Source: Halichondria panicea (Eukaryota > Porifera > Demospongiae > Suberitida > Halichondriidae). From it: a stretch of 64,000 bases of DNA. Location: positions 2,866,001-2,930,000 of the forward strand of contig NC_087390.1 of assembly GCF_963675165.1 (NCBI RefSeq). Reading direction: 5' to 3'. Both the position numbers and the translations under genes were made by a program. The notes beneath the pieces were generated by a model, which was not told where the DNA came from, did no database searches, and was given only the letters and a program-made list of their open reading frames with translations. Below are positions 3,641 through 23,800 of the stretch, in pieces. Each line of letters begins with the position of its first letter. Position 1 is the first letter of the stretch.

Positions 3641-5620
3641 TTTTTTTATTTTTTTATAATAATTCTGCAAAATGCATGGATACACTAGTAGCATATTATG
3701 CTAACCTAATGTGTGCCCTGTATATATTACTTACAATAGCGAGTACAAATTAAAAATAAAGACTAATATTATACTAATGCAAGTGACAGAGTACATTTCT
3801 CTTAAATGACAAAATCGATGTACTTTCCTGCAGCTCCAGTGGTAATTCATTCCACACAGATATTGCTTTTGGGAAAAAAGAGTTCGCATATGCATTTGTT
3901 CTGCAAATTGGTCTTTCAAACTGTATATTTTTTGTGCTTCTTAGATTGAGAGGGCATACTCTTCTTTCCAGTGGTGGATCAGGGAATTTAAAGTTACCAT
4001 TTATTACCTGGTAAAGGTATGATAGCTTCAGGTACAATCTTCTTGTGGAAAGGGACGGTAGGTCCACAGTATCTAATAGGGAGTCGTAGTCCATATTCCA
4101 AAGTTTTGTGCAGATTTTAAGGGCAAACTTTTGTACTTTTTCTATTTTGTGAGAATTTGTTTTTTGGTGTGGATCCCAAACAGGGGCAGCATATTCCAGT
4201 TTTGATCTCACAAGAGAGATGTAGAGTTGTCTTAAACATTCTAGTGACGAGTGGCCATAGAACTGTCAGTAAATTATACCAACCTGCTTGCAGGCATTTC
4301 TGCACATTCCTTCTATATGTGTTTTGACCATAAGAGGTCGTGAGAGATCCACACGCCAAGGTACTTGTAGTGGTCAACTTTAAGTAGGGGACGTCCACTG
4401 ATATTGAGACACATGTTGGGAAGTGGTGGGCTGAATTTTCTTGATATAGTCATGTATTTACACTTGCTTTGGTTAAACAAGAGTACATTTCTTTCAGACC
4501 ATGCTTGGAGTTGATCAATATCTCCTTGCAATTTTATATAATCTTCAGGAGATTGAATAGGATGGTAAAGAAGAAGATCATCAGCATAGAGCAAGAGACT
4601 TCCTTCATTTTGATGTAGATCGATGTCATTTATATAGATTAGGAAAAGAAGAGGTCCTAGCACCGAACCCTGGGGAACTCCTGACACAACCTCCGAGATA
4701 TTTGATGACTTTCCATTTATTATGACATATTGTGATCTATTCCTGAGGTAGCTTGCTACCCAAGATACCAGATGGGGATCTAGGTTCAGATTGGTTAGCT
4801 TACTCATCAATATCGAGTGAGGAACCTTGTCAAATGCTTTTTTGAAATCAAAAAAGACTGCACATACACTCTGACCATCTTCAAGCAGTTTGTGCCAATT
4901 GTGCACTGCCGTAAGCAGCGCACCTGTGGTGGATTTTCCTTTAGTGAAACCCCATTGTTTATTCGAGAGGAAAGATATATCTTTTAGCTGTTCTAAGATT
5001 TTACTATACATATGTTTTTCCAGGAGCTTTACAAGGATGGAGAGTAGCGATATAGGGCGATAGTTTAAGGGATCAGACTTGTCGTTTGATTTGGGTATTG
5101 GAGTGACATGAGCCAATTTCCAGTCGTATGGCAGTTCACAGTTTTTTATCGATATATTGAAAAGCATTGTTATACTTGGGGTGATCGTTTCAGCAGTAGC
5201 CTTCAGCATTTTGGCGGAGATTCCATCAGGGCCATTTGCTTTTGTGGTGTCTAGATTTGATAACAGGTTGAATACTTCATCTTCTGTGCAGCGTAAGTTC
5301 TCAGGTAAGTCTCTTGTTGGTTGTTTAAAGGAATTTGGGTCAAGAGCGAGGAGGAAGTGAATGGTTGAAATTTGCATAAAACTGTTTGTTAAGGACCTGG
5401 GCCTTTTCTTCATCCTGTTCGATTTTGCAGCCATTTACTACAAGACATGGGATAGAGCTATCTGATTTTCTCAGGTATTTCAGAGCTGTACAAAATTTTT
5501 TGACTGAGGCTTGAGGGTGCTAAAGAAATCTTGTTTACTCCGTCTGAGAGTGGTCACAACCTTATTTCTGATCTGTTTGTAGGTTGCAATATACGGGCAC
5601 AATCATGAGGGTGAGTTGCC
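3632..5620 (-). mobile_element. 5'-truncated, frameshifted non-LTR retrotransposon (reverse transcriptase)
   Basis: The minus strand carries a reverse transcriptase of the CR1/L2/Jockey style. Motifs seen in order are GPDGIS, YRPISLL, FDFKKAFDKVPH, GVPQGSVLGPLLFLIYINDI and the catalytic YADD. A downstream C-terminal region (SKLEYAAPVWDP to about 3774) is in a different frame. The main open frame covers 4313-5434. Upstream sequence to about 5620 continues the protein only through two frameshifts, near 5500 and 5345. No endonuclease domain remains, as expected for 5' truncation. An A-rich tail of (TAAAAAA)-like units lies at about 3632-3665. The element sits inside the duplicated flank and is absent at the matching place near 20.5 kb, so it is a later insertion or rearrangement product. 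It is dead. Confidence 0.85.
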
Positions 5621-5644: not shown

Positions 5645-5959
5645 GTTTATATCACGACAACCCCTTACCATTGAAACCATGCCCCCCCCCCGCCTCCGAG
5701 CACAAACGTGTAATAATAACACAGAGGGACTGTATTACAACCTTATACCCTTGACAACGTGATATAATGTGTATAGAATTACCGTCATCAAATTTTTGAG
5801 TACCATCACATTAAGATGCATAATTATAATAATTATGATTATTGTTACACTTGATAATTATTGTTTGATTCAAACTGTGTAAGAATCCATTTCTAAATGA
5901 GTTGCAAATGTAGAATAAAAACAGCTATGTGTGTATAATGTACCTATTGTTATTACAGT
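5645..5959. other. Intergenic segment shared with 20561-20829
   Basis: This is the downstream flank of integrin copy 1. It aligns loosely with the flank of copy 2, as shown by the tttatatcacg/ttatatcgcg, catgccc and cgtgtaata blocks. It marks the left limit of clear similarity beyond the retrotransposon. No gene was seen. Confidence 0.5.
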
Positions 5960-6359
5960 TCAAAGTTCAGTCTCCTCCCCATCATCGTCATGTACCCCTT
6001 GTGCAGGGTCAAAGTCCATAAACACATCCTCTTCAGCAGCAGCTGCCTCCTGTGCGTGAGTATAGCATTAGAATGAATCATGAAATAAACAATATTGAAC
6101 TCACGTTAAGCTCTCTCTCTCTCGAGCTCTGCTTCTTCTTCAGCTTCGGCTTCCTTCTCTTTCTCCTCGTCTACTGCCTCCCCTGTCGCTACGTAACTCG
6201 TCAGCTCTGGTTGCCCCGCCCCACTCTGCGTGATACCGGGAATAGGGGGGATGGTACGTCGTTGGAAGAACTCAGAATCAGTTTGTTCCACTCCATTGGA
6301 CATATCGCCACTTTTCTTATTCTTGTACCAGCGTCGGAATAGGCCACACTGTGACAATG

Positions 6360-6513
6360 TGTGTGTGTGATGGGTGTGTGTGTGTGATGGGTGTGCGTGT
6401 GGAGGGCGCGTAATGTGTGCTGTAAGACTACACATATACAGTGTGTGTGTGTGATGGGTGTGCGTGTGGAGGGCGCGTAATGTGTGCTGTAAGACTACAC
6501 ATATACAGTGTGT
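6360..6513. repeat. Tandem duplication with GT-rich minisatellite in an integrin-1 intron
   Basis: A unit of about 75 bp containing gatgggtgtgcgtgtggagg and ctacacatatacagtg occurs twice in tandem. The matching intron of copy 2 (21213-21383) has one unit, so the array changed after the gene duplication. Confidence 0.7.
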
Positions 6514-9500
6514 GTGTGGTGTGGGGAGTAAGGTGTGATATAAAACGACATAGTGTACTGTCAATTAAGACCGCTTTCTTGGACTCACCAATGCCAGTAT
6601 TGAAATTATGGCCACCAGTACGATTATCCCCACTACCACGGCAACGACTACCACCCAGTACGGCACACACTCCTGCGCCACCTCTGTCACTGCAGGTGAC
6701 ACGAGGAACGAAACCTACAAGAGAGAGAGAGAGAGAGAGGGGGGAGGGGGAGTAATAAACAAGACTCTGGTGTACAACATTGACAGGTGATCTCTGGTAC
6801 TGTATGTACTGTACTACAGGTAGCTACAAGTGTAACTCTCAACCCACTGCACCCACCCACCGTGCTCTGAGTGACGCTGTCCTCTCCCTGCCGTGGCAAC
6901 AGTGTCTCCTTGATCAGCTGAGAGTAGATGGTCAGATCACCAACAAACTGAACACCAGGACTCTGTGTGTGTGTGTGTGGAGGGGGAAATAATTTCCATA
7001 TACAATTGTACTCAATCACTATCTAGCGCATGACAGAGTTGCAAACTTACAAAGAGTCTAGCGAAGAGAGTGAGCTCAGCGGGGGGTCCAGGGGTGGGGC
7101 CAAGGTCCGCTATGGTACAGAGGATCACACCAAACGTAAACTGTCCCATACTATTACAAGCGGGGTCAATAGGTGGGGGTGGTCCCGTCCAGGGCGGGAT
7201 GAACCCAGCTGGTTCTTGAATCACAGACTGTACATGTGTGCGTGTAGTTGTGCAAATGAAATGGAGAGTTCTTATTGTGTTAGGCACAACAAACTCACCA
7301 ATCTCCTGGGTATGGCTTGATAGTGACTGCAGTTGATGGTCCCCGAGGTAGCGACAATCTCCGTGGGAATGAGGAGGGGGAAGTCCCTGTGTTCAACTGG
7401 CAGGTGTATAAGGAGGGTGGTCCGAGGGAAAGCTGTTCCATTGGTCGCCTCTCGTGAGTTGCGGACACTCACTCTGAAGTTGAGTAGTGGGCCAGTCTCG
7501 TTGAGAGGTATGGTGGAGGCATTACGATAGATAGTGTTCCGGAAGGCTATGTACCTCTCCTCCGACACACTACGAGGGGGGAGGGAGAGGGGGAGGAGTG
7601 ATATACATACTAGACTGAGTCATTATAATTCTCTACATAGACAGTGATCATACCATAATTATCCTAAAATTCAATCAGTTTCATGCAGTTTTGCTATAAT
7701 GCCTCAGAAGTACCACACACACACACACATACACTCACACTGAGCTGATCCCACACCCACACACACACTCACACTGAGCTGATCCCATAGTCTCCGACAG
7801 CTTCAAGACGCACCTCCTTGCTAGCAGTGGTACTGATGTTGCCAGAAATACCGTCAATCACCAGAAACGTAAACTCAAGAGATTCAGTATCAAGAGGAAT
7901 GCCCGACAAGTTGAAACCAAAGAAGAGCTCTAATTGCAGGGTCTTCCCCGCCAGGGTGGGGTTACGAAGGGCACATTCGACAGCTGTCGTGAAATTGCTG
8001 AGCTGATCGTTTATCAACCGACTGTTGCACTCGGTAACAGCACTTGGACTCAACGACACCTGGAGAGGGAGGGGGAGGAGTAATCAAAGGCTTATTGAAC
8101 TCATATTATATCCAACGTGAGTGTATTTAGCATGGAATTAGCTTGACGATACAATGATGTAATGTTGCTAGCTTTAGTTAGCCAGTGGGATAATAATAAT
8201 TTAAATCATGGGGGTTATAGTCCCTCGAAAGTAGTGTTGTACATGCACTTACTGAGTTTTCCAATACCATCCCCCGAGGCAGTTGTACGACCAGTGTGGG
8301 GCTGAGTCCATCATCACCAGCTGTGTTGCTCACGTTGACACGGTAACCAAACACGTTTGCAGACGCAAGCACCAGAGTGTTGTCATCTGACATACTACAG
8401 AAGAAAAATTATATAATCATATCTTCATCTTGCATTTTGTTAAACTCTCTATAGAATTATTCTTCCATGGTAACATTATACGAAGCGTCCAATCAGATTC
8501 TATATAGCACTATACTTACAAGTCCTCCTGTATGGATAGTTGGTAGACGGGCTCACATTCCAAGCTAGCACCACTGCTGCAGTTGACGTTGAAGTTAATA
8601 TCGTACTCCAATGACAGGGGCATGGGGACATCTCCCCTCAGGTAGCGGCGCAGTATCGGGTGAAGAGCTCCACCCAATTCGTCGGAGGAGGGGGTGGAGT
8701 CAAGTGCGAGGGGTTGAGGGGAATCGTCAATGGAAAACTGCACTGATATCGGAGACGTATCAGTGAAATCGGCCTGTGTGTTGGGATGATCATTAGAGTT
8801 ATTATAATTAAGCTGTTTTTGTTCAACTTACACTGAGTGCAAAGGTTAGAGGAGGTGCACAGACCCTGCCCGCTTCCCCTGGAGCTTCCACGGTAACGAT
8901 ATCGGTGTACGAGCTGCCTCCAAGTGTGGCATCACCACTAACGGAGTCCACCTGATAATGAGCCGCTCGTGACTTAGTCCCATCCACTGTCACCGTGTAA
9001 CTCAGCGCTGGATCACGTGACAGTCACATGATATTATACAAAGAGACAGAGGATTCTTAAACTCACCAAATCTTGTGACGTTTCCAAACTTTGAGTCAAA
9101 TTGAAAGCAAGGAGTAATATCGAAACTGCACAAGGACAAAAATACTGCACATAAAATGACATGTTATAAATACAAAATTTTTTTGTGATCAAACGTTACA
9201 GTTGCAAACGTAGGCCAATAGGCAAGTACGTGCAAGCCTATAACGTTATAAGCTAGTTGGTATCTCAAACCACCCCCTCACCATGCAAGGTTGACATTCT
9301 CTGATAGCTGGCACACCCGATCACTGTCACCCAGTATGTCCAACGCTTCCCTCCGATTCTTGAGATCAAAGGTCACATTAACAAGGGGGCTGCTCCAATA
9401 AGAGGTCACGAGGTCACCCGAGAGGTCGCTAACTGTGATGTCAGGGTACCCGTTGCTATCAATGTCCGTACCCCCTGTCACCTGGTAACCAAATACTGTT

Positions 9501-12132: not shown

Positions 12133-13431
12133 ATGGCAGCTCAATCCTTGGTCCCCTACATCCACCCAAGCCCAGCTTACCACAGGGATTTTTTCCTGTT
12201 GCAAATTCCCATCAAGATCAACAACCAACCAAGTGTCATCGAAATAGTTGATGGCACTCCTGTGCTACACTGTCCTGAGGTGGAGCTCTCAGTGCAACTG
12301 GTCGTACTAGCTCAGCATGTCTCCACTGTGCTAGCGGAATACCGTATCACGCTAAAAGGAGCCTATTACGATGACAACTATCCACTCTATGCCATTGATC
12401 TACCTCCTACAATATCCAAAGAGGGACTGCACTCTCTTTTGCCTGCTTTCTCAAATGTTTGCTATAGCATTACTGAGAGATATTTTTCACAAGTTCCTTG
12501 CAAGACCGTAGTGGTAGTTGACTTTCAGCTTTTTCTCTGCTCTCCTGCAAAGGACAGCTTTACAAATTCCAAACTCACCTCAATTCAGCTTGGACAAGAA
12601 TCAGACGAGATTCTTTTGACCTTTATAGACAGCAAGATGTTTAAATTCTCTGAGCTCTTCACCTCTAGATCCAGCTCGTCCCCTACAATCATTGAATCAT
12701 CCTCTAAAGCTACTGCTGTATCATTTGTGTCACTCCTCCGAGCACTGAGTGGAAAGGCCAGTCACAAGTGGTTCAATCTCGGAGCTCTGCTAGGAGTATC
12801 CGCTGAGAAATTGCAGAGAATTGAGAAGCAACACCAGAATCCAGACTCTTGCTTGACACACACACTCAAGAATGTGGTGGACAGTAACACCGAGCTGATG
12901 TGGGGAGAGGTGGTCTCAACGCTTTCCACTGTCGGGCTGAGCAATCTGGCAGAGGAAGTCAGTAAGGAACATGGTGAGTTACTCAAATGGAAATTCAAAT
13001 CTATTGTTGTGAATTAATTAGATGTATGCTTCCTGAGGGCTGAAAACGAACCTTTGACTAAACGTGAGTAGCAATGCAACCATGACATGTTTTAGACTAA
13101 TTTCATGTATTCACATGTACAGCCACTCTCCAATCTCTGAGCCAATCTTTAACTGATGTCAGTGCCAAGTGGTTCAACTTTGGTGCTCTTCTAGGAGTCC
13201 CCCCCAGTACACTACAAGCAATTGACAACCACTACCACTCTGACTGTGATGACTGCATGCCTCACTAGAATGCTTATGTGGCTGATAGAAAACTCACCCA
13301 TCACATGGTCCTCAGTAGCACAAGCTCTGGGCCAGATTGGATATGGAGACCTAGCGGAACAAATCAGACAATCACATGGTGAGCATAATTATGCCTCAAG
13401 GCGTAGCCGCACGAGGGATACGGTAAAGCTG

Positions 13432-13464
<33 letters not shown>

Positions 13465-14577
13465 TCCAGCTGTAACTGCTCAACGGTTGCAATGCGACAA
13501 AAACTAACAGCTTCTATAGGCTTCTAGCCACGTTCTTGAAACAATTGCAAATTATTTACCTCTTCTATAACACCCTAATACTTTTGAGCGAAAGCAAAAA
13601 ATGGCGAGAGGCATTAGCAAGCGCACGCTTGCAACACTCGTTATGGTGGTTTCTATTATTATGTATACTGCATGTATTAGCAGGTAATTTTCTTTTTCGT
13701 ATACGAACTAAATATTTCGTATTTTAAGTCTTCGTACAGCTCAGGATATATAGATGTTGAACCTATTGTGGTAGAATATTTTCATGATGCTCTACAATAC
13801 AAGTGTACGAACATTTCAACCATAATTAGCATTACCAGTTATAATTATACGCATGGTGCTAGGGATTCTTTGTGCAATGCACCCATATCAGATGATAATT
13901 GATGACCTTTTCTGATTTGTGCAGATATCTCACCAATACCATCTGAGAGTGTAACACAAGTAAGAAAACAAAATTTGATATTCGTCTAGTTGACAAGTGT
14001 TGTGTTGTCCTTGCATGTAGCAAGCTGAAGTAAGAGCCGATGATACAGAACAGTGGAAAATTGAAATAGAATCATCTGTCACTGAAGTACGACAAGAGGT
14101 CGACACTCTTAAGCAAGATTATGCTAGTATGAAAGATGTGCTAAATGGGCTACAAGAAGAAAAAGATAAAATCAAAAAATGCTTTGAGCAGGAACAAGCA
14201 CATTGCAACAGCCTTTATGAATCAAGAGCATAATCAACAGTGTGGGCATATATAGTGTTATTGAGGAAGAAATTATTGAGAACGAATCGACAGTAGCTGA
14301 TATAAAGAGTGAACTTGATTGCACCGATACAAAATACAATGACAAATCTCAGGAAATGGCCCGTCTTGCTACAACCCTATCGGTGAGAACAAGCAAACTT
14401 GTAGAAAAATCCTTTGTTTTGTCAAAAATTGAAGAGTCATTTTTTGAGTGCGATGATGAATCTGATGAATCTGAGTGCGATGATGCTAAACTGTCTTATC
14501 AACAACGGCTGGTGAAGGCTAAGACACTTTCTGAGGTTGATTATATTATAAGCTCCGCAAGAAGTCCGAGTAGTTGA
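12133..14577 (+). pseudogene. Death-domain GTPase gene, copy 1 (frameshifted and truncated)
   Basis: This duplicates the gene at 15008-19912. Exon 1 (12133-12973) is intact and encodes the unknown N-terminal region plus the first death domain (KASHKWFNLGALLGV). A small exon (13022-13063) follows. The exon for the second death domain (13123-13378) carries a 4-bp insertion at 13257-13260 relative to copy 2, giving a stop within three codons. The coiled-coil exon from 14021 ends early at a TAA (14231-14233) because about 75 bp are replaced. Homology stops by about 14545, so the filamin repeats and GTPase are absent. A short product from exon 1 (294 codons, reading into the intron to 13017) is still possible and could act as a death-domain-only protein. 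Confidence 0.85.
13385..13530. repeat. Dispersed repeat, intron of DD copy 1
   Basis: It starts at aattatgcctcaaggcgtag and includes gatacggtaaagctgac, a GT microsatellite, ctgctcaacggttgcaa and acagcttctataggcttcta. The same order occurs at 16265-16430 and, reversed, at 34480-34620. It has no coding capacity. Confidence 0.75.
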
Positions 14578-15007: not shown

Positions 15008-18000
15008 ATGGCAGCTCAATCCTTGGTCCCCTACATCCACCCAAGCCCAGCTTACCACAGGGATTTTTTCCTGTTGCAAATTCCCTTCAAGATCGACAAC
15101 CAACCAAGTGTCATCAAAATAGTGGATACCACTCCTGTGCTACACTGTCCTGAGGTGGAAATCTCAGTGCAACTGGTTGTACTAGCTCAGCATGTCTCCA
15201 CTGTGCTAGCTGAATACAGTATCAGGCTAAAAGGAGCGTATTACGATGACAACTATCCACTCTATGCCATTGATCTACCTCCTCCAATATCCAAAGAGGG
15301 ACTGCACTCTCTTTTGCCTGCTTTCTCAAATGTTTGCTACAGAATTACTGAGAGATATTTTTCACGAGTTCCTTGCAAGACCGTAGTGGAAGTTCACTTT
15401 CAGTTTTTTCTCTGCTCCCCTGCAAAGGACAGCTTTACAACTTCCAAACTCACCTCAATTCAGCTTGGACAAGAATCAGACGAGATTCTTTTGACCTTTT
15501 TAGACAGCAAGATGTTTAAATTCTCTGAGCTCTTCACCTCTAGATCCAGCTCGTCCCCTACAATCATTGGATCATCCTCTAAAGGTGCTGCTGTATCATT
15601 TGTGTCACTCCTCCGAGCACTGAGTGGGAAGGCCAGTCACAAGTGGTTCAATTTCGGAGCCCTGCTAGGAGTATCCGCTGAGAAATTGCAGAGAATTGAG
15701 AAGCAACACCAGAATGCAGACTCTTGCTTGACACACACACTCAAGAATGTGGTGGACAGCAACACCGAGCTGACGTGGGGAGAGGTAGTCTCAACGCTTT
15801 CCACTGTTGGGCTGAGCATTCTGGCAGAGGAAGTCAGTAAGGAACATGGTGAGTTACTCAATGTATTTAAATGGAAATTCAATGTATTGTTGTGAATTAA
15901 TTATATAGGTGTATGCTTCCTGAGGGCTGCTGAAAATGAACCTTCGACTAAACGTGAGTAGCATGACATGTTTAGACTAATTTCATTCATGTATTCACAT
16001 GTACAGCCACTCTCCAATCTCTGAGCCAATCTTTAGCTGATGTCAGTGCCAAGTGGTTCAATTTTGGTGCTCTTCTAGGAGTCCCCCCCAGTACACTACA
16101 AGCAATTGACAACCACTACAACTCGGACTGTGATGACTGCCTCACTAGAATGCTTATGTGGCTGATAGAAAACTCACCCATCACATGGTCCTCAGTAGCA
16201 CAAGCTCTGGGCCAGATTGGATATGGAGACCTAGCGGAACAAATCAGACAATCACATGGTGAGCATAATTATGCCTCGAGGCGTAGCCGCACGAGGGATA
16301 CGGTAAAGTTGACTGTGTGTTTGTGTGTGTCTGTCTGTCTGTCTGTCTGTGTGTGTGTGTATTCCAGCTGTAACTGCTCAACAGTTGCAATGCGACAAAA
16401 ACTAACAGCTTCTATAGGCTTCTAGCCACGTTCTTGAAACAATTGCAAATTATTTACCTCTTCTATAACACCCTAATACTTTTGAGCGAAAGCAAAAAAT
16501 GGCGAGAGGCATTAGCAAGCGCACGCTTGCAACACTCGTTATGGTGGTTTCTATTATTATCTATACTGCATGTATAGCAGGTAATTTTCTTTTTCGTATA
16601 CAAACTAAATATTTCATATTTTAAGTATTCGCACAGCTCAGGAGATGTTGAACCTATTGTGGTACAATATTTTCATGATGCTCTACAATACAAGTATACG
16701 AACATTTCAACCATAATTAGCATTACCCGTTATAATTATACGCATGGTGCTAGGGATTCTTTGTGCAATGCACCCATATCTGATGATAATTGATGACCTT
16801 TTCTGATTTATGCAGATATCTTACCAGTACCATCTGAGAGTGGTGTAACACAGGTAAGGAAAACAAAATTTAATATTTATGTGCATGTGTATAGTTGACA
16901 AGTGTTATGTTGTCCTTGCATGTAGCAAGCTGAAGTAAGAGCCGATGATACAGAACAGTGGAAAATTGAAATAGAATTATCTGTTACTGAAGTACGACAA
17001 GAGGTCGACACTCTTAAGCAAGGTTATGCTATTATGAAAGATGTGCTAAATGGGCTACAAGAAGAAAAAGATAAAATCGAAAAACGCTTTGAGCAGGAAC
17101 AAGCACATTGCAACAGCCTTTATGAATCGAAAAGACTCCTGACCATTCACTTGCAAAAAGATGAACAACACTGCAAGAAAATCAAGGCCATTGAGGAAGA
17201 AATTATTGAGAAAGAATCGACAGTAGCTGATTTAAAGAGTGAACTTGATTGCACCGATACAAAATACAATGACAAATCTCAGGAAATGTCCCGTCTTGCT
17301 ACAGCCCTATCGGTGAGAACAAGTGAACTTATAGAAAAATCCTTTGTTTTGTCAAAAATTGAAGAGTCATTTTTTGAGTGCGATGATGCTGCTCTTAGAA
17401 TTGCTGACAAGCGAATACTAGACTATCAACAACGGCTGGTGGAGGCTAAGAAGGTTTCTCAGGCTGCTTATCTGGCTGAAATAAAGGTATATGGAAGATC
17501 GTTTAATGTGTGTGCTCTTGTTTCATTTTTACTTTTTCCCCTTTTTAGTCACAACTTGAAACTGAAACCGAATGCGTGAAGAACCTTGAAGAAAAGTGCC
17601 ACCTTATTGACAAACAGTGCTCTGACCTTGCCACCATTGTTGCTAGTATTGAAGGAGACATTGCTACCAAAGAACAAGCTTGTGAGACTCTGGAAAGCAA
17701 TACCGAGGGGTTTTTTCAGCAGCAGAAGCAGATTGAGCTCACTCAGCTAAAAATGGAAATAATAAATCGCAAACTGGAGCTTGCTAAAGCAAAGATCAAA
17801 CATCGAGATTCCACACAAGAATTAGCTTACCATCGAAAAGATTTTCAAAGAGCAAAAAACCTTTTGGTGAGTTCATAATAATTGTTGGCGCAAAAATATT
17901 TTTAACATTGCTACTTGCATTGCTTAACAAAGCAACTGTTTTCTTTCCAGCCTGAACTAAGCAAATGCAGTGTGGATGGTATCGATGTACCCGTACACAA

Positions 18001-19912
18001 AGCAAGAGCATACGTTGCCATGGAGATCAAGGTCCATCTTTACAACAGAGACGGCGAGCCATGCAGCGGACAGCATTTAGTTTCTCTATGCTGTGAAACA
18101 GATGAGCAGATGTTTACTGAGGCCAATAGCAGTGCCCCTGATGGCACTTACTCTCTCTCCTACACCCCCTCATGTCTGGGGGAGCGCTCGTTAGTGGTAG
18201 CCGTGAACAGTACACCCATCAACAAAACGCCCTTCAACGTGTTCTTCCTGAACAGCCCTCATCCCCCAAATTGCACTGTTATTTTAGACAAGAAAATTGT
18301 CCAACACAAAAAATTTGACGCCCTCGTGCAACTCAAAGACCAGAATGGTGACCAAATCAATTCACGACAGAACGTGTCAGCGTATTTTAAATTTCCTGAT
18401 ACATTCAAGAAGACTGAAGCAATTATTTCCTCTTCTAGTGATTCTCCTGACAAGTACACGCTTGTATTAACTACGCCTTCTAGTGGTGAGGGAGTGCTCT
18501 CCGTTTTTGTTGACGATCAGCTCATTGCTAGTCCCAGTGTAATCATTACTAGTCCCAGTGTAATCATTGCTAGTCCCAGTGTAATCATTACTAGTCCCAG
18601 TGCTAGTCCCAGTGTAATCATTACTTCAAAAAGCAGTACCCGCTCAACTAATTTGTTGCTGGGAATGGGTGGCCTTGGAGAAAAGATGGTTTCCAACATT
18701 CCACATTCAAAAGGTCCTCACCATCCCTTCAAAATGCTTCTCATTGGTGAAACTGGATCTGGCAAGACTTCTTTTCTCAACCTTCTGTACAACTGCGGTA
18801 CTGTGCAGGCTCTTGGATGTGGGTTCGGAGCTGAAGGTCTTGAACAATTTAAACAGTTCAATGACATCCAGCTAGAAAATGCAATGGAGCATGCAATGCA
18901 AAGCAAAACGAATGATGCCAAGCGATACAATGTTGAAGTTGGAGATCTTAAGGTTGGAGTAATCGATACTCCTGGCTTTGGTGATTCTCGTGGTCTGGAC
19001 CAAGACAAGGAAAATGCTGAAAAGATTGTGAATGCACTAAAAGCTGAAGACTACATTAACTGTGTCTGCCTGATCATCAATGGCTATCAAGCTCGAATAA
19101 GTGTTTCGCTGAAGTATGTTCTGTCCGAGATCACTGCCATTTTGCCAAGAGATATCCTTAACAAATTGATTGTTGTTTTCAGCAGCACCAGTGAAGCACT
19201 GGACCTCAACTTCGATCCGAAATTACTGACTGAATATTTTGGTAAGGAAGTCGACAACGTCTTTTACATCGAAAATCCTTACTGCCGGTTTGAGAAAGCA
19301 CGGAGTAAAGTGAAACAGCTCGGTATTGACTTAATTGCAAGCTCTTTACAGAAATCTTTTGAAGCCACTACTAAAGTCCTGGGTGATATGTGCACCACGA
19401 TCAAAGATTTCTCTCGGGTTCACACACGTCGATTTGTTGAGCTCTATGAGAAGAGGCAAGCCATTGAAAGCACTGTTTTCGTTGCACTCAATGAGTATGA
19501 AAACCAGATTTTCTTGGAAAAGGAAATAAGAAACAAGAGGAAAGAAGTGTCGGCTGCTATGGGTCGAAAGGAATTATTCAAGAAACGAGTATCAAAAGCA
19601 ATGGAAGCTGAATTCAACAAAGCCAAAAGTGATGAAGAACGAGCTCAACTATTGTACCACCAGTTTGAGGAGAAAAAACTAGCATCTGAAACTAAACGAC
19701 AGCAGCTGTATGACGAGCTTATTAAAGCAATCTCAGAGTTTGAGACCTTGGGAATTGCAAGGAATTACACAAAATTGATCGAAAACCAGTTGGCTCTAAT
19801 AGACACACATCTTGAAGGTTCAACTGGCCCCGAGTTCGAATACCTTTGTAAGACCAGGAATGATGTCAAGAAAATGCTGGAGGTGGTGCAAAAAGCCAAG
19901 AAAACGAAGTAA
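15008..19912 (+). CDS. Double death-domain, coiled-coil, filamin-repeat GTPase
   Basis: Seven exons join in phase: 15008-15848, 15909-15953, 16007-16258, 16816-16853, 16926-17486, 17549-17866 and 17951-19912 (1,338 aa). In order there is an unrecognised region (about 1-195), a death domain (about 205-280; SHKWFNLGALLGV-like), a second death domain (about 300-378; AKWFNFGALLGVPP) and a long coiled coil (about 395-680). Then come two filamin-type Ig repeats (about 685-885), with GTYSLSYTP and the strand ending TPFNV in the first. A short SPSVIIT tandem linker follows, then a GTPase domain with P-loop GETGSGKTS and G3 DTPGFGDSRG, and a final helical region. The G domain resembles GIMAP/septin-like TRAFAC GTPases. 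No clear NKxD (G4) motif is visible. There is no signal peptide or membrane segment, so it is probably cytosolic. Death domains usually recruit adaptors, so a switch-controlled signalling or innate-defence role is inferred. It converges with the integrin gene. Confidence 0.85.
16265..16430. repeat. Dispersed repeat, intron of DD copy 2
   Basis: Same unit as at 13385-13530, with a (tg)/(tctg) microsatellite expanded differently. Confidence 0.75.
18522..18625 (+). repeat. In-frame 21-bp minisatellite encoding (SPSVIIT/A)n
   Basis: About five units of agtcccagtgtaatcattrct occur, one of them shortened. They form the linker between the second filamin repeat and the GTPase domain. The reading frame is kept throughout. 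Confidence 0.9.
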
Positions 19913-20567: not shown

Positions 20568-20829
20568 CGCGTTGACCCCTTCCCAAATCATGCCCTGAAC
20601 ACGACCGTGTAATACGAAGGGAACTGTATGGCTTAACCTTACACTGAGCGTGATATAGAATATACCGTCGCCTGCAATAATATGATTACAGCCATACACT
20701 TGATATTGTTTGATTCAAACGTAAAAGATATCAATTCAAAGACTGTAAGAATCCATTTCTAAATGAGTTGCAAATGAAAGATTTGTAGAATAAAAACAGC
20801 TATATGTGTGTACATGTACCTAATACTGT

Positions 20830-23800
20830 TCAAAGTTCAGTCTCCTCCCCATCATCGTCATGTACCCCTTGTGCAGGGTCAAAGTCCATAAACACATCCT
20901 CTTCAGCAGCAGCTGCCTCCTGTGTGATGTAGCATTAGAATGAATCATGAAATAAACAATATTGAACTCACGTTAAGCTCTCTCTCGAGCTCTGCTTCTT
21001 CTTCGGCTTCTGCCTCTTTCTCTTTCTCCTCGTCTACTGCCTCCCCTGTCACTACGTAACTCGTCAGCTCTGGTTGCCCCGCCCCACTCTGCGTGATACC
21101 GGGAATAGGGGGGATAGTCCGTCGTTGGAAGAACTCAGAATCAGTTTGTTCCACTCCATTGGACATATCGCCACTCTTCTTGTTCTTGTACCAGCGTCGG
21201 AATAGGCCACACTGTGACAATGTGTGTGTATGGGTGTGTGTGTGTATGATGGGTGTGTGTGTGGAGGGGGCGTAAGGTGTGCTGTAAGACTACACATATA
21301 CAGTGTGTGTGTGGTGTGGGGAGTAAGGTGCGATATAAAACGACATAGTGTACTGTCAATTAAGACCGCTTTCTTGGACTCACCAATGCCAGTATTGAAA
21401 TTATGGCCACCAGTACGATTATCCCCACTACCACGGCAATGACTACCACCCAGTACGGCACACACTCCTGCACCACCTCTGTCACTGCAGGTGACACGAG
21501 GAACGAAACCTACAAGAGAGAGAGAGAGAGAGAGGGGGGAGGGGGAGTAATAAACAAGACTCTGGTGTACAACATTGACAGGTGATCTCTGGTACTGTAT
21601 GCACTGTACTACAGGTAGCTATACAAGTGTAACTCTCAACCCACTGCACCCACCCACCGTGCTCTGAGTGACGCTGTCCTCTCCCTGCCGTGGCAACAGT
21701 GTCTCCTTGATCAGCTGAGAGTAGATGGTCAGATCACCAACAAACTGAACACCAGGACTCTGTGTGTGTGTGTGTGTGGAGGGGGAAATAATTTCCGTAT
21801 ACAATTGTACTCAATCACTATCTAGCGCATGATGACAGAGTTGCAAACTTACAAAGAGTCTAGCGAAGAGAGTGAGCTCAGCGGGGGGTCCAGGGGTGGG
21901 GCCAAGGTCCGCTATGGTACAGAGGATCACACCACACGTAAACTGTCCCATACTATTACAAGCGGGGTCAATAGGTGGGGGTGGTCCCGTCCAGGGCGGG
22001 ATGAACCCAGCTGGTTCTTGAATCACAGACTGTACATGTGTGCGTGTAGTTGTGCAAATGAAATGGAGAGTTCTTATTGTGTTAGGCACAACAAACTCAC
22101 CAATCTCCTGGGTATGGCTTGATAGTGACTGCAGTTGATGGTCCCCGAGGTAGCGACAATCTCCGTGGGAATGAGGAGGGGGAAGTCCCTGTGTTCAACT
22201 GGCAGGTGTATAAGGAGGGTGGTCCGAGGGAAAGCTGTTCCATTGGTCGCCTCTCGTGAGTTGCGGACACTCACTCTGAAGGTGAGTAGTGGGCCAGTCT
22301 CGTTGAGAGGTATGGTGGAGGCATTACGATAGATAGTGTTCCGGAAGGCTATGTACCTCTCCTCCGACACACTACAAGGGGGAGGGGGAGGGGGAGGACT
22401 GATACATGTATACATACTAGACTAAGTCATTATAATTCTCTACATAGACAGTGATCATACCATAATTATCCTAAAATTCAATCAGTTTCATGCAGTTTTG
22501 CTATAATGCCTCAGAAATACCACACACACACACACATACACTCACACTGAGCTGATCCCACACCCACACACACACTCACACTGAGCTGATCCCATAGTCT
22601 CCGACAGCTTCAAGACGCACCTCCTTGCTAGCAGTGGAACTGATGTTGCCAGAAATACCGTCAATCACCAGAAACGTAAACTCAAGAGATTCAGTATCAA
22701 GAGGAATGCCCGACAAGTTGAAACCAAAGAAGAGCTCTAATTGCAGGGTCTTCCCTGCCAGGGTGGGGTTACGGAGGGCACATTCGACAGCTGTTGTGAA
22801 ATTGCTGAGCTGATCGTTTATCAAGCGACTGTTGCACTCGGTAACAGCACTTGGACTCAGCGACACCTGGAGAGGGAGGGGAGGAATTAATCAAAGGCTT
22901 ATTGAACTCATATTATATTCCACGTGAGTGCATGTGTTTAGTAGGGAATTATAATTATGCTTGACGATATAATGTTGCTAGCTTTAGTTAGCCATAAAAG
23001 TGGGCAAGTTATAATTTATATCATGGGTGTTATGTATGGTGCCCTCGAAAGTAGTACTGTACATGCACTTACGGAGTTTTCCAATACCATCCCCCGAGGC
23101 AGTTGTACGACCAGTGTGGGGCTGAGTCCATCATCACCAGCTGTGTTGCTCACGTTGACACGGTAACCAAACACGTTTGCAGACGCAAGCACCAGAGTGT
23201 TGTCATCTGACATACTACAGAAGAAAAATTATATAATTCTTGCATTTTGTTAAGCTCTCTATAGAATTATTCTTCCATGGTAACATTATACGAGGCGTCC
23301 AATCAGATTCTATATAGCACTATACTTACAAGTCCTCCTGTATGGATAGTTGGTAGACGGGCTCACATTCCAAGCTAGCACCACTGCTGCAGTTGACGTT
23401 GAAGTTAATATCGTACTCCAATGACAGGGGCATGGGGACATCTCCCCTCAGGTAGCGGCGCAGTATCGGGTGAAGAGCTCCGCCCAGTTTGTCGGAGGAG
23501 GGGGTGGAGTCAAGTGCGAGGGGTTGTGGGGAATCGTCAATGGAAAACTGCACTGATATCGGAGACGTGTCAGTGAAATCGGCCTGTGTGTTGGGATGAT
23601 GATTATAATTATATAATCCAGCTGTTTTTGTTCAACTTACACTGAGTGCAAAGGTGAGAGGAGGTGCACAGACCCTGCCCACCTCCCCTGGAGTTTCCAC
23701 GGTAACGGTATCGGTGTACGAGCTGCCTCCAAGTGTGGCATCACCACTAACGGAGTCCACCTGATAATGAGCAGCTCGTGACTTAGTCCCATCCACTGTC

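Follow-up and report, generated by a model that had tools for sequence, protein, structure and literature searches.

Does a gene of an early animal join death-fold adaptor domains to a GTPase of the GIMAP/septin kind in one protein, and if so, how was that protein assembled and what might it do? The question is posed by a forward-strand gene, here called A, in a 64,000-nucleotide stretch of the sponge Halichondria panicea (the window; C14:2866001-2930000 of a 131-Mb genome), for which an earlier note had proposed a seven-exon model encoding two death domains, a coiled coil, two filamin-type repeats and a G domain. An independent model returned the same span (15008-19912), exon number and length (1,338 amino acids, aa), and its six introns, all GT-AG, leave the phase unbroken across every junction, as had been claimed; the frame stays open through all 1,338 codons, without a frameshift. 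The domain identities and their order were likewise borne out by Pfam and profile searches, and the same architecture is present in paralogs of the same genome. Pairwise ratios of nonsynonymous to synonymous substitution rates (dN/dS) are 0.35 for the front between A and its intact paralog B (Fisher p 3.7e-18) and 0.39 for the GTPase and tail between A and a GTPase relative, H (p 2.5e-7), a clear sequence signature of purifying selection on the front and on the GTPase. Because the exon chain and its phases recur in B and selection has been purifying, the observed fusion is confirmed, at the level of sequence, to be more than chance. Four features described below go beyond the earlier note: the chimeric origin of A, a relative that bears ankyrin repeats, a decayed tandem copy in the window and the loss of a Cys/His-rich segment. 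The front, as we use the term, would comprise the N-terminal domain (N-domain), two death domains, the coiled coil and two filamin-type repeats, all in one protein.

The two ends of A have different histories. Judged by synonymous distances (dS) and DNA identity, A is a chimera in which a front of the lineage of B and a further paralog, C, is joined to a GTPase from a lineage of front-less single-exon genes. GTPase relatives cluster at C14:2112-2191 kb; the front was not found in these genes, and five of them (D, E, F, H and J) consist of a single exon with its own start codon. The fronts of A and B are separated by a dS of 0.28; the GTPase of A lies at 0.26 from front-less single-exon genes 0.7 Mb away, versus ~1.5 from B. 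In 80-codon blocks, dS between A and B is 0.06-0.59 in the eleven blocks up to aa 880 and rises to 1.0-1.7 over the four that follow, the first of which offers only 27 codons for comparison; the fifth is not estimable, and the value of 0.43 in the last (58 codons) suggests a second short exchange tract at the 3' end. Within the G domain, A is 85% identical to H (dS 0.23), 80% to D (dS 0.29) and 63% to B and C. DNA homology of A to B and C (82-83%) stops at 18543 and 18545 and is picked up again, at 71-72%, only from 18728; homology to the GTPase genes begins at 18681 (E, 74%) and 18711 (D, 87%; H and J, 90%). An approximately unbiased (AU) test rejects a clade of the A, B and C GTPases (p 1.2e-41), a group chosen after the distances were known. 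What counts against the chimera is the GTPase tree, whose resolution is poor (of 10 inner branches, 3 are starred) and in which no starred set, of up to half the rows, holds A. The tree places A in no strongly supported group; it is dS, DNA identity and the AU test that carry the case. We rejected a history in which the whole gene is a single lineage and its GTPase has evolved fast: the jump also affects synonymous distance, and at the DNA level the GTPase shares 87-90% identity with D, H and J. That A, rather than B and C, is the recombinant is mildly favored, because its leader before the G domain resembles, by eye, that of the single-exon genes.

Identification of the front rests on several kinds of comparison. 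Pfam Death matches exon 3 with an expect value (E) of 4.9e-5 and 23.8 bits (cut-off 22.6), and the tandem death domains of B match it in two stretches at 1.3e-11 and 44.9 bits. Two PDB chains were retrieved with a profile built from six of this genome's death domains: PIDD-CC at E 0.0011 and, at E 0.0016, a leucine-rich repeat and death domain protein. The low-confidence model of exon 1, predicted with its in-window duplicate (mean predicted local distance difference test score, pLDDT, 35.6), has six helices over residues 198-279. Ahead of these domains, the N-domain (~aa 1-180) gave no Pfam or PDB match better than E 0.2; the sequence of its strands and helices may resemble that of TRADD-N. 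Exons 5-6 (293 aa) have a strong heptad, 3.5-residue periodicity that none of 1,000 shuffles reaches. The NACHT or NB-ARC ATPase that marks NLR and STAND proteins did not appear in Pfam searches of A's exons, nor did the RING and B-box that mark TRIM proteins in Pfam searches of exons 1 and 3. The first filamin-type repeat matches Pfam Filamin (E 3.4e-9, 37.8 bits; cut-off 26.9), and its profile is closest to the filamin domains of TRIM45 and TRIM71 (5.6e-5 and 6.4e-5). The second is not matched separately by Pfam in A or in B, where Filamin matches one stretch at 8.1e-14, and a profile search of PDB returned only weak matches to it, the best being TRIM71 at 0.28; its hhalign profile comparison with the first repeat scores 96.9%, and both repeats are matched by Pfam Filamin in a divergent relative on C5 (2.6e-13, two stretches).

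At the other end, the G domain of A exceeds the Pfam cut-offs for AIG1 (E 2.7e-7, 30.6 bits; cut-off 27), for MMR_HSR1, and for Septin (E 7.4e-7, 29.1 bits; cut-off 26.2), the Septin match covering only profile positions 4-76 of 280. Among its paralogs, D passes AIG1 (30.6 bits) and not Septin, and B passes Septin and stays under the AIG1 cut-off (23.9 bits), so that the label of GIMAP/septin-like given in the earlier note is fair. The G4 motif of the AIG1/GIMAP family is of the (N/T)xxD type. An N-x-x-D is found at G4 in eight of nine compared GTPases (NTSD, NTAD, NTGD, NAAD); K reads NTAY and A reads STSE. Relatives with a full-length GTPase open reading frame (ORF) carry a Cys/His-rich segment of ~80 residues between the G domain and the C-terminal tail, and A, set beside the full-length ORFs of B, C, D, E, F, G, H and J, is alone in having neither this segment nor N-x-x-D. 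The segment is probably old and was lost in A, because a similar one occurs in distant genes on C15 and C6 and in L041 and L042, two loci outside this genome.

Table 1. Coordinates of gene A, its parts and its relatives. Positions refer to the window unless a contig is named.
Feature	Position	Strand	Content or basis
Exon 1	15008..15848	+	N-domain ~aa 1-180, fold not recognized; first death domain from ~15575
Exon 2	15909..15953	+	45-bp linker; homologous exons in B and C are 51 bp
Exon 3	16007..16258	+	Second death domain, Pfam Death
Exon 4	16816..16853	+	38-bp linker; homologous exons in B and C are 35 bp
Exon 5	16926..17486	+	Coiled coil; periodicity, matching paralog exons
Exon 6	17549..17866	+	Coiled coil; periodicity
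Exon 7	17951..19912	+	Two filamin-type repeats, G domain, C-terminal region
First filamin-type repeat	17951..18256	+	Exon 7; Pfam Filamin
Second filamin-type repeat	18257..18553	+	Exon 7; profile comparison with repeat 1
21-bp tandem repeat	18522..18602	+	7-aa unit, 3.9 copies, in linker; overlaps junction
Recombination junction	18546..18710	+	Switch in DNA homology
AIG1/septin-type G domain	18728..19300	+	Pfam, alignment
G1	18746-18769	+	GETGSGKT, alignment
G3	18965-18985	+	DTPGFGD, alignment
G4-like motif	19184-19195	+	STSE, alignment
C-terminal region	19301..19909	+	Helical in low-confidence model; Cys/His segment missing between 19572 and 19598
Decayed truncated tandem copy, exons 1-5	12133..14544	+	Frameshifts in exon 3 and exon 5
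Truncated copy	C14:2856330-2858065		N-domain match
Paralog B	C14:2098469-2093826		Intact; all seven exons, same phases, GT-AG sites
Paralog C	C14:2105489-2100928		Same seven exons; exon 3 two bases longer, frame lost
C5 locus	C5:3776626		Divergent; N-domain, death domain, coiled coils, two filamin-type repeats, then ankyrin repeats

Relatives of both ends of A were found in the same genome by searches that took no account of introns, so that all locus counts are lower bounds. The N-domain occurs at at least six loci: A, a decayed copy in the window in which exons 6-7 were not found, another truncated copy, B, C and the C5 locus (Table 1). Behind the C5 front, ~9 ankyrin-like segments are seen by eye, all four of those searched exceed the Pfam Ank cut-off, and no GTPase was seen there. 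Within the GTPase cluster, three genes have an additional upstream exon (at 2146209, 2170967 and 2191830); the first and third fall just under the Pfam CARD cut-off of 23.9 bits (23.7 and 23.1), and the second has no Pfam CARD match. Two of these genes keep the splice signals of this exon, the donor GT of the third reading AT, and two of the three have a short GTPase ORF (266 and 338 aa). The attachment of ankyrin repeats to the front on C5 and of a CARD-like exon to members of the GTPase family supports an exchangeable module.

Several observations concern the surroundings of these genes. Two single-exon GTPase genes 26 kb apart in the cluster (C14:2158645-2157107 and 2184746-2183208) encode identical proteins and appear identical across 260 bases around their starts, as if the duplication were very recent or the assembly had entered one locus twice; compared without gaps over 4,601 bases, of which 3 kb lie upstream, the two agree at only 3,137 positions, which implies an indel or divergence further upstream. 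A neighboring stretch is present in the window in two copies, 92-97% identical (5868-6705 and 20734-21500), that flank both tandem copies of the death-domain gene, so the duplication may have included more than that gene. Dispersed repeats at 16268-16541 (intron 3) and 13385-13643 are common to the intact gene and the decayed copy and were probably present in intron 3 before the tandem duplication; more copies lie at C14:2118549, 2119650, 2139723 and other places. On the minus strand at 3777-5434, the window holds ORFs that, by eye, we take to resemble the reverse transcriptase of a retroelement without long terminal repeats. Across the genome, Pfam AIG1 gave 56 matches, 50 of them over the cut-off; because the model also matches prokaryote controls (13 of 14, with 8 exceeding the cut-off), some of the 50 are other GTPases. 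Many AIG1-type open frames outside the cluster, the best at 68 bits, are found on G000, C1, C4, C6-C9, C11 and C14-C17, some of them grouped. Within 10 kb of a death-fold match lies one of the 56, a count that used 96 of 194 death-fold positions from lists without A's own death domains and without the CARD-like exons, and from which nothing is concluded.

One polypeptide is the best reading of the exon chain, because B keeps both phase and splice sites and because the filamin repeats and the GTPase share a single uninterrupted ORF in A (668 aa), B (703 aa) and C (706 aa). The death-domain exons and the filamin-GTPase exon could instead be separate, merely adjacent transcripts: an in-frame ATG 24 residues into exon 7 would permit a stand-alone filamin-GTPase protein, the single-exon genes of the cluster start at codons of their own, and front-only truncated copies occur. 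We consider this very unlikely, as phase is kept at all six introns in A and in B, translation from the internal ATG would truncate the first filamin repeat, and the filamin repeats, joined to the GTPase ORF in A, recur with a death domain and coiled coils on C5. Phase alone does not prove the use of exon 2 (45 bp in A), because skipping it keeps the frame. A single polypeptide could still have arisen by recent recombination, have little or no function and be heading for decay, given that the copies adjacent to A are broken and that A is the one full-length GTPase copy with neither the Cys/His segment nor N-x-x-D. The long intact frame and the dN/dS of 0.35-0.39 make this fate quite improbable, although the ratios are pairwise and the constraint may in large part be older than the recombination, which limits the case against decay.

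We posit that A gives rise to a single cytosolic polypeptide that serves as a scaffold: its front stays the same, its C-terminal module (in A, a GTPase of the AIG1/septin type) can be exchanged, and it would act as a TRIM-like dimer signaling through its death domains; we hold this with moderate confidence. Death domains assemble with others of their kind, a coiled coil with filamin is a theme of TRIM and cytoskeleton proteins, and AIG1/septin-type GTPases dimerize and polymerize. By analogy with TRIM proteins, the coiled coil would dimerize A, the filamin repeats could serve as a spacer, and the GTPase would either (i) bind a trigger or (ii) co-assemble with front-less GTPases of the same family. 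Once clustered, the death domains would recruit a downstream partner that has a death domain too, in the manner of PIDD or NLR proteins. Members that bear death domains would do the signaling within an assembly of mixed GTPases, innate immunity or cell death being the most likely setting. With the front constant and the back changing, sensing or switching would fall to the back and signaling to the front. The likeness to TRIM2/3/45/71 lies in a coiled coil followed by a filamin-type repeat and, in some, an exchangeable C-terminal module; these proteins differ in having a RING and B-box at the front and no death domains, and TRIM2/3/71 end in NHL repeats, not in a GTPase. The same TRIM and cytoskeletal theme, the closeness of the filamin profile to TRIM45 and TRIM71, and the Septin match of A would also fit a structural scaffold in which a septin-like polymerizing GTPase is combined with filamin and the death domains are ordinary binding modules. 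We regard that role as rather unlikely: tandem expansion, decayed copies and module exchange resemble immune-type turnover, and the same GTPase family bears CARD-like exons, although each of these is compatible with a structural role too. More tentatively, the signaling scaffold might belong to a modular receptor family that plays the part of NLRs with another kind of switch and has a constant death-domain front, onto which two GTPase lineages or ankyrin repeats would have been placed by recombination, the front-less GTPases of the cluster acting both as module donors and as partners in mixed assemblies.

Several findings pull the other way from a signaling scaffold with an exchangeable back. 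In exon 1, Pfam Death alone gives E 0.011 and 16.3 bits, below its cut-off of 22.6, and the predicted models have low confidence, that of exon 1 as given above and that of exon 7 alone at a mean pLDDT of 39.6. The STSE of A falls outside the (N/T)xxD type of G4 motif, and its guanine binding may thus be weakened. The front is present at only two places outside the neighborhood of the window, C is frameshifted and two copies are truncated, and the death domain at C5, homologous to that of A by tblastn, reaches 14.5 bits, below the Pfam cut-off. Four GTPase loci were found in the genome_contigs set, and none there or in the viral contigs has the architecture of A; the viral contigs scanned yielded no related loci. 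Two of the four, on metagenome-assembled genome contigs labeled Bacteroidetes (L041) and Flavobacteriaceae (L042), carry a related GTPase with a similar Cys/His segment and might be eukaryotic contamination or a bacterial branch; the other two are, by eye, GTPases of the elongation-factor-G type.

How new is the combination? The earlier note had taken it to be unknown, a claim that goes too far. Death-fold/AIG1 fusions are already in print: excerpts of the papers cited here describe Biomphalaria glabrata AIG1 genes with an N-terminal DD-CARD or DD-Fas (DD, death domain), some with a coiled coil and often in tandem arrays (PMC7053062), and lancelet AIG1 genes with an N-terminal CARD in an expanded immune family, which resemble the CARD-like paralogs here (PMC12373286). 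Both share with A a death-fold domain N-terminal to AIG1; in the excerpted text, tandem death domains with filamin repeats are not described for the snail genes (PMC7053062), nor a death-domain pair or filamin repeats for those of the lancelet (PMC12373286). Neither the order of two death domains, coiled coil, two filamin repeats and GTPase nor the exchange of C-terminal modules on it was found in the excerpts of the literature searched. Zebrafish Gbp4 likewise combines an interferon-inducible GTPase with a death-fold signaling domain and acts via the inflammasome, but its GTPase is of the guanylate-binding-protein type and its CARD is C-terminal, according to the part of that report available (PMC4932187). 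Among prokaryotic conflict systems, excerpts describe death-like domains in the same sorts of system as GTPases of the septin/GIMAP-like type (PMC8195603, PMC7159879); these share with A the logic of a GTPase switch or effector where death-like adaptors also serve, and differ in being bacterial and multi-gene. A PADLOC search gave weak matches only, in the P-loop region.

For sponges, the published excerpts state that Amphimedon lacks such GTPases (PMC7053062, PMC11229196), and two GIMAP-family genes are among those that differ in a sponge's response to symbionts versus seawater microbes (PMC11229196). The many AIG1 matches in this sponge genome bear on that stated absence, as far as the excerpts give it (PMC7053062, PMC11229196). 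If the proposed scaffold is real, death-fold signaling in early animals would have been wired to AIG1/septin-type GTPases besides NLR-type ATPases, and swapping the GTPase behind an unchanging signaling front could have served to diversify receptors.

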